Positions 22,294 to 27,770 of a stretch of DNA of 64,000 nt are shown in pieces. The position numbers were made by a program, and so were the translations under genes. The stretch is from Oscillatoria salina IIICB1 (lineage in GTDB: Bacteria > Cyanobacteriota > Cyanobacteriia > Cyanobacteriales > SIO1D9). Below the pieces are notes generated by a model. The model saw only the letters and a program-made list of their open reading frames with translations, ran no database searches and was not told the origin of the DNA. The DNA lies in the NCBI RefSeq assembly GCF_020144665.1, contig NZ_JAAHBQ010000025.1, positions 1 through 64,000 on the forward strand. The letters run 5' to 3'. Each line of letters starts with the position of its first letter. Position 1 is the first letter of the stretch.

Positions 22294-23388
22294 ATGGCAA
22301 TTAAAAGAACCTCTGAACAACAGGGTAAACTAATCTCGCGACGCACAGTTAAACCAGAAGAAAAAAAACAGTCTCCCCCAAAGAAAAAACCGCCAGAAAG
22401 AGATCGTATCCTGGAAGCGACAGCCGGAGTAGAGGAAACTGATAGTAACGAAGAAAAAATTCGACCTCAGCGTCTCGCCGATTATATCGGACAAAAGGAT
22501 TTAAAAGAAGTTTTGCAGATTGCGATTCAAGCCGCTAAAGGAAGAAATGAGGCAATGGATCACTTGTTGCTGTATGGTCCCCCTGGATTAGGAAAAACCA
22601 CAATGGCGACGATTTTAGCTACAGAAATGGGCGTTAATTGTAAAATTACTGCCGCCCCCGCGTTAGAACGTCCGAGGGATATTGTGGGGATTTTAGTTAG
22701 TCTTAATCCTGGAGATATACTATTTATCGATGAAATTCATCGCTTAACAAGGATGAGCGAAGAATTACTTTATCCAGCGATGGAAGATTGCCGTTTAGAT
22801 ATTACCATCGGCAAAGGACAAACAGCCAAAACTCGTAGTTTACCCTTACCCAAGTTTACCTTAGTCGGTGCAACTACTCGCGTCGGCTCGTTAACTGCAC
22901 CATTACGCGATCGCTTCGGGATGATTCAAAGATTGCGTTTCTATGAAATTGACGAATTAACCCAAATAGTCTTGCGTAGCGCCGAAATTCTCCAAACCGC
23001 CGTAACTGAGTCAGGAGGACAAGAAATCGCCCGTCGCGCTAGGGGAACACCGAGAATCGCTAATCGCTTGCTGAGGCGTGTCAGAGACTATGCTCAAGTG
23101 AAAAAACAGGATACAATTACCCAAGAAGTAGCAGCCGAAGCCTTAGAATTGTATAACGTCGATCGTAACGGCTTAGATTGGACAGATCGACTGGTTTTAA
23201 GCGTAATGATCGAACAATTTAAAGGAAGACCAGTTGGGTTAGAAGCGATCGCCGCAGCTACGGGAGAAGATGCAAAAACTATTGAAGAAGTTTACGAACC
23301 ATACTTACTGCAAATCGGCTATTTAAACCGTACAGCAAGAGGTCGCATTCCCACGGAAGCAGCGAAAAAGCATCTCGGCTACAATTAA
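22294..23388 (+). CDS. ruvB: Holliday junction branch migration helicase RuvB
   Basis: The hexameric AAA+ motor that drives branch migration with RuvA. Walker [10 protein letters not shown], Walker B DEIHR, the sensor 1 GATTRVG and the arginine-finger region APLRDRFG are all intact. The C-terminal winged helix is present ([28 protein letters not shown]). I choose the ATG at 22294 (MAIKRTSEQ); an upstream TTG at 22264 would add ten residues with no better ribosome-binding site. The protein is about 364 residues with a charged N-terminal extension of about 55 residues (many Lys/Glu/Pro), as in other cyanobacterial RuvB proteins. It is divergent from hisF. Confidence 0.95.
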
Positions 23389-23398
23389 TTGGGAATAA

Positions 23399-23716
23399 TT
23401 AACTTTCTTCTTCAATCGAGTCTAACCAATTAGTTAAATCAGTCAAAGCAGTAAAATCTAATAACGCTTCAGCTAATTCTTCCAACTGAGAAAGAGACAA
23501 TTGCTCAATTTGCGCTTCTAACTCAGATTCAATCGTACCAAAACGTCGTAAGATTAGGCGCATAACTAAGGAACGAGCTTCTTGTTGAAGACTTTCACTT
23601 CGTCCTTGTTGAAGACCCTGTTGAAGACCTTCTCGCAGTATCCTTTGATAAATAACTGACTCGCGCATAATGTCATCGGTGAATAATTGAGCAATCAAAC
23701 TTTCTTCAAAACGCAA
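23399..23716 (-). CDS. C-terminal Rpn fragment, tandem copy 3 (array end)
   Basis: Encodes 105 residues equal to the C-terminal part of the Rpn-family protein at 24.4-25.3 kb: the DDIMRESVIYQRILREG helix, a Gly/Gln-rich linker and a coiled C-terminal DUF4351-like region with LSQLEELAEALLDF. The linker reads GLQQGLQQGRSESLQQ, unlike the other copies, and the tail is EEES instead of EQQS. The start would be TTG at 23716 (the equivalent Leu of the parent), 33 nt after the stop codon of the preceding copy where comparable, with no obvious ribosome-binding site. It lacks the nuclease domain. It may be a translated antitoxin-like fragment or simply a duplication remnant. Confidence 0.5.
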   Translation of the reverse strand: MRFEESLIAQLFTDDIMRESVIYQRILREGLQQGLQQGRSESLQQEARSLVMRLILRRFGTIESELEAQIEQLSLSQLEELAEALLDFTALTDLTNWLDSIEEES

Positions 23717-23748
23717 ACCAGCCAGAAATTAGCCGAAGACAAAGAAAA

Positions 23749-24066
23749 TTAACTTTGTTGTTCAATCGAGTCTAACCAATTAGTTAAATCAGTCAAAGCA
23801 GTAAAATCTAATAACGCTTCAGCCAATTCTTCCAACTGAGAAAGAGACAATTGCTCAATTTGCGCTTCTAACTCAGATTCAATCGTACCAAAACGTCGTA
23901 AGATTAGGCGCATAACTAAGGAACGAGCTTCTTGTTGAAGACCTTCAGTTCGACCTTGTTGAAGACCTTCATTTCGTCCTTCTCGGAGTATCCTTTGATA
24001 AATAACTGACTCGCGCATAATGTCATCTGTGAATAATTGAGCAATCAAACTTTCTTCAAAAGACAA
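23749..24066 (-). CDS. C-terminal Rpn fragment, tandem copy 2
   Basis: A 105-residue copy of the Rpn C-terminal region with linker GRNEGLQQGRTEGLQQ and tail EQQS, almost identical to the next unit. The first residues read SFEES where the other copies have RFEE. The frame is open from a TTG to the stop with no disruption, so the sequence has been kept as a reading frame or is very recent. No nuclease residues are present. Whether it is translated is uncertain; termination-reinitiation from the preceding unit is possible because only about 33 nt separate stop and start. Confidence 0.5.
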   Translation of the reverse strand: MSFEESLIAQLFTDDIMRESVIYQRILREGRNEGLQQGRTEGLQQEARSLVMRLILRRFGTIESELEAQIEQLSLSQLEELAEALLDFTALTDLTNWLDSIEQQS

Positions 24067-24098
24067 ACCAACCAGAAATTAGCCGAAAACAAAGAAAA

Positions 24099-24416
24099 TT
24101 AACTTTGTTGTTCAATCGAGTCTAACCAATTAGTTAAATCAGTCAAAGCAGTAAAATCTAATAACGCTTCAGCTAATTCTTCCAACTGAGAAAGAGACAA
24201 TTGCTCAATTTGCGCTTCTAACTCAGATTCAATCGTACCAAAACGTCGTAAGATTAGGCGCATAACTAAGGAACGAGCTTCTTGTTGAAGACCTTCAGTT
24301 CGACCTTGTTGAAGACCTTCATTTCGTCCTTCTCGGAGTATCCTTTGATAAATAACTGACTCGCGCATAATGTCATCTGTGAATAATTGAGCGATCGCAC
24401 TTTCTTCAAAACGCAA
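24099..24416 (-). CDS. C-terminal Rpn fragment, tandem copy 1
   Basis: A 105-residue copy directly downstream of the full-length nuclease gene, separated by the same 33-nt spacer as the other copies. Its linker (GRNEGLQQGRTEGLQQ) is 4 residues longer than that of the parent gene, a 12-bp difference. In the coiled C-terminal part it shares RLILRRFGTIESELE with the other free copies, whereas the parent reads RQLRRRFGKIEPELE. The free copies therefore resemble each other more than the parent. Function is unproven. Confidence 0.5.
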   Translation of the reverse strand: MRFEESAIAQLFTDDIMRESVIYQRILREGRNEGLQQGRTEGLQQEARSLVMRLILRRFGTIESELEAQIEQLSLSQLEELAEALLDFTALTDLTNWLDSIEQQS

Positions 24417-24448
24417 ACCAGCCAGAAATTAGCCGAAAACAAAGAAAA

Positions 24449-25300
24449 TTAACTTTGTTGTTCAATCGAGTCTAACCAATTAGTTAAATCAGTCAAAGCA
24501 GTAAAATCTAATAACGCTTCAGCTAATTCTTCCAACTGAGAAAGAGACAATTGCTCAATTTGCGCTTCTAACTCAGGTTCAATCTTACCAAAACGTCTTC
24601 TCAACTGGCGCATAACTAAGGAACGAGCTTCTTGTTGAAGACCTTGTTGAAGACCTTCAGTTCGTCCTTCTCGGAGTATCCTTTGATAAATAACTGACTC
24701 GCGCATAATGTCATCTGTGAATAATTGAGCAATCAAAGTTTCTTCAAAACGCAAACCAGCCAGAATTTCGACACAAGCGGAAATATTCTGCTGTCGTGTT
24801 GATTCTTCAATAGTAGCGACTCGTTGAGCGATTTGGGCTAACAAATTTTCTGGAGAGTCGCTGCGAGTTAAAGTTGCTAGGGGTAACAAACCAGGGTTAG
24901 CAAGAAATAAGGCTGGATCTTGCTGCCAAAGACGGATGACGCGATAACGATGATAAGTGTTAGTATCCTCGTAGCGGTCAATGTATGCTAGTTCCGAAGT
25001 TGTTTCCTGTAAAAAGATTACCACTTGCGCGATCGCACAACCATATTGTCGCTTCAGCCGGACATAATAGTCCAGCATTCTTAACGGTATGGGTGGACTT
25101 GAGTAAGGTAGAGTTTGAAACTCCACTTGGAGAATTAAATTACCCGCTTGCAAGAAAGTTAGGGAGTCAGCCAGAATTGGTTCGATGCTTAACTCAGTTT
25201 TGAGAACTTCTACATTCTCAACTTCTCTTCCCAGTAACCAACGCACAAAGTCTTCTGGGTAATTTTCAGCGAGATATTTACAAGCGTTGTCGTAAGTCAA
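24449..25300 (-). CDS. Rpn-family PD-(D/E)XK nuclease with DUF4351-like C-terminus
   Basis: A 283-residue protein of the Rpn (recombination-promoting nuclease)/putative-transposase family. The N-terminal restriction-like fold includes the acidic ILADSL (about residues 42-47) and LQVEFQT (about 57-63), the D...E-x-Q core typical of this family. PIPLRMLDYYVRL and FLQETTSEL are also usual. The C-terminal third carries the EG-repeat linker (GRTEGLQQGLQQ) and a coiled region. Rpn proteins are DNases linked to recombination and phage defence. Its 3' third is repeated three more times downstream. The ATG start at 25300 is divergent from xisH. Confidence 0.85.
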   Translation of the reverse strand: MTYDNACKYLAENYPEDFVRWLLGREVENVEVLKTELSIEPILADSLTFLQAGNLILQVEFQTLPYSSPPIPLRMLDYYVRLKRQYGCAIAQVVIFLQETTSELAYIDRYEDTNTYHRYRVIRLWQQDPALFLANPGLLPLATLTRSDSPENLLAQIAQRVATIEESTRQQNISACVEILAGLRFEETLIAQLFTDDIMRESVIYQRILREGRTEGLQQGLQQEARSLVMRQLRRRFGKIEPELEAQIEQLSLSQLEELAEALLDFTALTDLTNWLDSIEQQS

Positions 25301-27333: not shown

Positions 27334-27365
27334 CAATTTCATGTAGCGTAAATAAAGCAAATTGG

Positions 27366-27488
27366 TATTATTTGGTCATCGCAAATGGTATTATTACTCG
27401 CCAAAAATGCTATTATTGGTTATGTAAAATGTAATTATTTTTCGTCGAAAATAGGATTATTTTTCATCAAAAATGGTATTATTGGTCA
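27366..27488. repeat. Degenerate 22-bp tandem repeat
   Basis: About five and a half copies of a unit near GGTATTATTGGTCATCAAAAAT in direct orientation; the period is 22-23 bp and each copy differs at several positions. No spacers of constant length are present, so it is not a CRISPR array. Confidence 0.75.
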
Positions 27489-27540
27489 TCCTGAGCGAAG
27501 CGAAGAATCTCCATAGATCCTTCGCTTCGCTCAGGATGAC
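27485..27540. repeat. Long inverted repeat (GTCATCCTGAGCGAAGCGAA type)
   Basis: Perfect 21-nt arms at 27485-27505 and 27520-27540 around a 14-nt loop. The arm sequence belongs to a repeat seen in intergenic regions of unrelated bacteria. Its right arm is the seed of the degenerate array that follows. Confidence 0.85.
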
Positions 27541-27770
27541 ATTGGAAATGAATTTTCGCTCAGGATGACATGAGGAAATGAATTTTCGTTCAGGATGACA
27601 TGGGGAAATGAATTTTCGCTCACGATGACATTGAGCAATAGATAGATTGATTACTCACGATGACATCGAGAAATAGATAGATTGATTACTCAGAATGATA
27701 TTGGAAATCAATTTTCGCTCAAGATGACATTGAAAAAAGTATTGATTTTTCAGAATGACATTGATAAAAG
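27530..27770. repeat. Degenerate array around TTTTCGCTCAGGATGACAT
   Basis: Roughly eight imperfect copies of a unit like GAAATGAATTTTCGCTCAGG followed by ATGACAT, with some copies replaced by AGATAGATTGATTACTCA. It looks like decaying amplification of one arm of the neighbouring inverted repeat. Confidence 0.7.

Follow-up and report, generated by a model that had tools for sequence, protein, structure and literature searches.

A tandem array of free-standing copies of the 3' end of an Rpn-type nuclease gene in Oscillatoria salina IIICB1

Organization of the array and its parent gene

The window analyzed here is the whole 64,000-nt stretch at positions 1-64,000 (forward strand) of contig NZ_JAAHBQ010000025.1 of Oscillatoria salina IIICB1 (GCF_020144665.1), and array coordinates are given on this window. 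It carries four direct repeats, all on the minus strand, with start-to-start distances of 350, 350 and 350 bp. The first repeat is the 3' part of a full-length Rpn-type (RpnL-like) gene, referred to here as the parent, which is an intact 283 aa ORF (24449-25300) with a TTG start preceded by GAGGAT. Copies 1, 2 and 3, numbered by their order along the minus strand after the parent, are free-standing ORFs at 24099-24416, 23749-24066 and 23399-23716, respectively. Each has 105 codons counted from a TTG that is the first possible start in its frame and 89 codons counted from an ATG (at 24368, 24018 and 23668, respectively). The minus-strand junctions from the parent stop to copy 1 (24417-24448), from copy 1 to copy 2 (24067-24098) and from copy 2 to copy 3 (23717-23748) separate each stop from the next frame by 32 nt. 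A first-pass annotation had described this layout as one full-length Rpn gene and three open 105-codon frames in units 350 bp apart, with approximately 33 nt between stop and next frame, and our measurements agree with it. The array is bounded by a convergent neighbor, ruvB (22297-23388, plus strand), which ends 10 bp from copy 3.

Matches to DUF4351 (PF14261) lie well above the cut-off for the parent and for each of the three copies. With the PF14261 model, the parent domain is placed at 24473-24649 (minus strand), and copies 1-3 are the only short free-standing DUF4351 ORFs found in the 5.96-Mb genome. As this genome is a draft of 163 contigs, the array might be a false expansion introduced by the assembler, but this is extremely improbable because pairs of copies differ at 7-19 of 350 positions and the array lies deep within a 65.6-kb contig, with unique flanks. 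Similar arrays are also present in finished genomes.

Two further features were noted in the neighborhood. A XisH/XisI pair (PF08814 and PF08869; 25486-26225, plus strand), in which the two genes overlap, is divergent from the parent, and the intergenic region at 27365-27752 contains short direct repeats of approximately 22-35 bp (CTCAGGATGACATT... and GGTATTATT...).

Several observations connect the parent to the Rpn family (COG5464 / TIGR01784). It has the acidic and Glu-x-Gln/Lys residues of a PD-(D/E)XK active site: D45, E60 and Q62 (E-F-Q) show little or no variation across 48 homologues. TIGR01784 is matched by 35 of these 48 homologues (down to 3.3e-27), while the score of the window parent protein itself is below threshold. 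The predicted parent model has a strand-strand-helix-strand core, the topology expected of PD-(D/E)XK enzymes. A fold search with this model returned nothing significant (best E-value: 0.38, a restriction enzyme), although restriction enzymes head the list. Homologues in public plasmids are labelled Rpn family recombination-promoting nuclease. No significant match was obtained with hhalign against a single E. coli RpnA sequence, and none with PADLOC. Judged from its sequence, the parent looks intact and is a probable DNA-cutting defence toxin.

Predicted internal starts and free-standing copies in cyanobacterial relatives

In E. coli, rpn genes contain an internal start from which their C-terminal end is made as a separate protein, RpnS, an inhibitor of RpnL (Zhong et al. 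2023, PMC10327210). RpnS variation takes the form of four-residue repeats and, in a rule based on E. coli RpnC only, a single additional repeat put an end to the inhibition of RpnCL by RpnCS unless both partners had it (PMC10327210). As free-standing rpnS genes downstream of their parents have been published (such as ypaA, and with DUF4351 in some species; PMC10327210), the duplicated-tail arrangement is not a new kind.

In cyanobacterial relatives of the parent, the motif F-R-E-[DE]-x-M-x-E-S-V-I-Y-Q stands before the repeat linker. Of 81 relatives, 70 have the internal methionine, and a Shine-Dalgarno site accompanies it in 67 of the 70 scored. Codon choice ahead of this methionine is strongly biased: the glutamate codon is GAG in 51/51 genes (background 32%) and the arginine codon is AGG or CGG in 45/52 (background 24%), so that GGGAGG or a similar sequence is spelled approximately 7-12 nt before the ATG. 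The mean pairing energy to the 16S end is -8.6 kcal/mol, compared to -4.1 kcal/mol for synonymous shuffles, with the observed value lower in 70/70 cases. When only one sequence per 70%-identity cluster is retained (39 representatives under 70% identity), the glutamate codon is still GAG in 28/28, and the same scan recovers the published internal starts of E. coli rpnA and rpnE. At the sequence level, these results strongly support an internal RpnS start in the cyanobacterial family, conserved at synonymous sites. One of the new findings here is the support from codon choice for such a start in the cyanobacterial relatives, by which it appears well supported. The link to RpnS drawn in the first-pass annotation is borne out, and is strengthened both by this conservation and by the published free-standing rpnS genes downstream of rpn (PMC10327210). 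We infer that RpnL is toxic in cyanobacteria as well, and that RpnS inhibits it there.

In many loci of the order searched, one or two C-terminal-only frames lie downstream of a parent. Based on a count from the pair list, parents with downstream copies occur in at least 8 of 30 finished or near-finished genomes. In the tree, free-standing copies cluster with their own parents in approximately 14 clades, which indicates that the duplication happened many times, with the qualification that copy-parent pairs inside one genus are not fully independent. In 17 of 21 pairs from relatives, the copy retains both the site and the ATG, and its homology to the parent extends only approximately 30 nt upstream of the ATG. 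Identity to the parent averages 0.29-0.38 beyond position -42 and at least 0.83 from -18 on. Most free copies in relatives resemble working rpnS genes whose translation would begin at the internal start. The dN/dS of 0.11 between orthologous free copies of two species in one genus (L081 and L110) suggests purifying selection on the free copies of relatives. A 13,628 aa open frame with a DUF4351 end in one genome (G142) was rejected as an artefact of a masked run of N.

A second array is found in the O. salina genome itself (L008/L139, G000:C7:80824-82400, minus strand). Like the window array, it has an Rpn-type parent followed by copies of the parent's own tail with differing four-residue repeat numbers; its C-terminal tail has no Pfam match. 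Unlike the window array, it has two copies, and these start exactly at ATGAGGTGGGATATG with the site retained (parent site -10.1 kcal/mol).

Ribosome-binding site, repeat number and descent of the window copies

In the window parent, the internal ATG is retained, but the Shine-Dalgarno site of the relatives is missing from the 20 nt preceding it (AATTATTCACAGATGACATTATG, 24704-24726, minus strand). At this site, the sequence of all four units is TTCACAGATGACATTATG or a close variant of it, and pairing energies are -0.1 kcal/mol for the parent, the weakest among the parents scored, and -0.1, -0.1 and +0.3 kcal/mol for the copies. The 3 of 70 entries without the site tetramer comprise the window parent, entered twice, and a DUF4351 gene on contig C117, making only two distinct genes without an internal Shine-Dalgarno among those scored, both in this genome. 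This C117 gene (L004, G000:C117:66277-67104), the other close DUF4351 gene of the genome, has no good internal Shine-Dalgarno (-3.6 kcal/mol), in contrast to all scored relatives from other genomes. An altered anti-Shine-Dalgarno was considered as a cause of the loss and rejected, as the 16S end of this genome is intact.

In the window copies, homology to the parent starts approximately 60 nt before the ATG. None of the three copies has a Shine-Dalgarno ahead of an in-frame ATG or GTG, none begins at a ribosome-binding site and start of its own, and promoter-like sites within each unit are weak and near chance. Loss of the site would lower translation. A Shine-Dalgarno is found at the first ATG in only approximately one quarter of window ORFs, which makes initiation without one plausible in the copies. 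As the loss is common to all four units, it most likely occurred before the amplification. In a search of 391 genomes of the order for nearer relatives by which to date it, none exceeded approximately 61% identity in the C-terminal region.

The copies also differ from the parent in their repeats. As previously annotated, the parent linker (GRTEGLQQGLQQ, 24629-24664, minus strand) is 4 codons (12 bp) shorter than that of the copies (RTEGLQQGLQQ vs RNEGLQQGRTEGLQQ), and the copies share residues absent from the parent (RLILRRFGTIESELE where it has RQLRRRFGKIEPELE). The difference in linker length amounts to one four-residue repeat. In copy 3, the linker is rearranged, with an EEES end. The repeats begin approximately 13 residues after the ATG, within helix 2-43 of the predicted model, in agreement with the RpnS pattern of repeats 8-20 residues after the start methionine in the first helix. 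The model of the RpnS part is confident and all-helical, with no significant PDB match.

Linker length differs in 17 of 20 scored copy-parent pairs, nearly always by multiples of four residues. This could mean that the copies are orphan or alternative-specificity antitoxins, with a repeat number suiting another or earlier RpnL allele, that protect against non-self or former toxins. The copies do have a common linker length, different from that of the parent, and in E. coli, too, ypaA exceeds rpnE by one repeat. However, only 13 of 70 pairs of full-length paralogues of similar divergence agree in linker length, compared to 3 of 20 copy-parent pairs, so there is no excess mismatch to explain, and this genome yielded no matching toxin. 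An excess of mismatch was rejected as a sign of selection: because paralogues differ as often, repeat mismatch is family background and not a mark of the copies. We consider alternative specificity of the window copies very unlikely. The broader proposal, that free-standing RpnS with shifted repeats forms a widespread orphan or alternative-specificity class of which the window array is an extreme, with a toxin that has lost its own start and depends on separate genes, seems only a little less improbable.

In the tree, the three copies group together as a clade next to the parent (SH-aLRT 95 and 99), the duplicates being closest to their own upstream parent (support of 99 for the parent-plus-copies clade). 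Identity between units is patchy. Parent and copy 1 show essentially no difference over their last 190 nt, while a dense block of changes (RQLR vs RLIL) lies just before. Such patchiness fits an idea in the first-pass annotation, namely that the copies are a donor pool for recombination into the parent; by gene conversion, they would rewrite its tail and repeat number. In this one strain, though, the pattern gives no direction of transfer, and ordinary tandem-repeat homogenisation yields it too; we regard a donor role as very unlikely. Separately, the cyanobacterial HIP1 palindrome (GCGATCGC) occurs in copy 1 at 24390-24400, and the corresponding sequence in copies 2 and 3 is TTTGATTGC; the HIP1 site was made by three clustered changes.

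The first-pass annotation further proposed that the copies are amplified, dedicated antitoxins. In this case, copy number would offset a scarcity of RpnS caused by loss of the internal site, with translation of the copies started at the ATG without a Shine-Dalgarno or by re-initiation after the upstream stop. All three frames are intact, and of the 7 changes that separate copies 1 and 2, 6 are located upstream of the internal ATG and the seventh is synonymous, a hint of coding constraint. Purifying selection on free copies in relatives and the detection of a tagged E. coli ypaA product (PMC10327210) point the same way. Against this, the copies are also without the site, their repeat number is unlike that of the parent, the two-copy loci L008 and L073 keep the site, and no locus was seen that ties site loss to copy number. 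The proposal is possible but not favoured, and we consider it unlikely that the copies are working antitoxins in this sense.

The copies appear to be duplicated antitoxin ends, but that they still act as antitoxins here is doubtful for three reasons. First, they have no ribosome-binding site. Second, their repeats are mismatched with those of the parent by one unit, a step that abolished inhibition in E. coli RpnC. Third, dN/dS between parent and copies is 0.6-0.9 outside the linker, a ratio that rests on few changes (approximately 10, including a clustered block that may be one conversion event). Because the site is lost and the repeat number mismatched, the copies are most likely poorly translated and untuned to the present nuclease. 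On balance, we lean towards the view that they are poorly translated duplicates that do not match the parent and have stayed similar to each other through recent duplication and conversion. The array would have originated by local tandem duplication of the 3', RpnS-encoding part of an Rpn-type toxin gene, as one of many independent parent-plus-free-standing-tail loci in cyanobacteria. The internal site would have been lost in the lineage before amplification. The first copy would have diverged (one extra four-residue repeat and RLIL..T..S), with a repeat number that stopped matching the parent, and then multiplied to three. Recent duplication and gene conversion would explain the likeness among the copies better than selection for an antitoxin.

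Comparison with E. coli RpnL/RpnS systems

These results extend the gene-within-gene Rpn toxin-antitoxin model to cyanobacteria, through strong sequence evidence for an internal start, and show that duplication of the antitoxin end is recurrent across many lineages. The window array is a natural case in which the internal start signal is gone and the copies remain. It makes two questions testable: whether a free-standing RpnS must match the repeat number of its parent, and how RpnL is restrained without an internal RpnS.

The closest known arrangements are E. coli rpnE-ypaA and rpnC-rpnCS, which, like the window array, have a downstream duplicate of the parent 3' end and four-residue-repeat variation; the extra repeat of ypaA relative to rpnE parallels that of the window copies. 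In contrast, the E. coli loci have one copy while the window has three, and ypaA starts at AAGGAGAGATTAATG while the window copies are without such a site. In RefSeq, ypaA is annotated as a pseudogene (E. coli K-12, L141:1805-2002). Homology of the window C-terminal sequence to RpnA was not detectable with hhalign and a single RpnA sequence. RpnS inhibits RpnL in E. coli, and both toxicity and inhibition are predicted for the cyanobacterial family. The likeness to the gene-within-gene RpnL/RpnS systems (COG5464) consists of a PD-(D/E)XK-like N-terminal domain and a helical C-terminal part with four-residue repeats. The internal start of those systems is also found in the cyanobacterial relatives, and it is the ribosome-binding site of this start that has been lost in the window parent.
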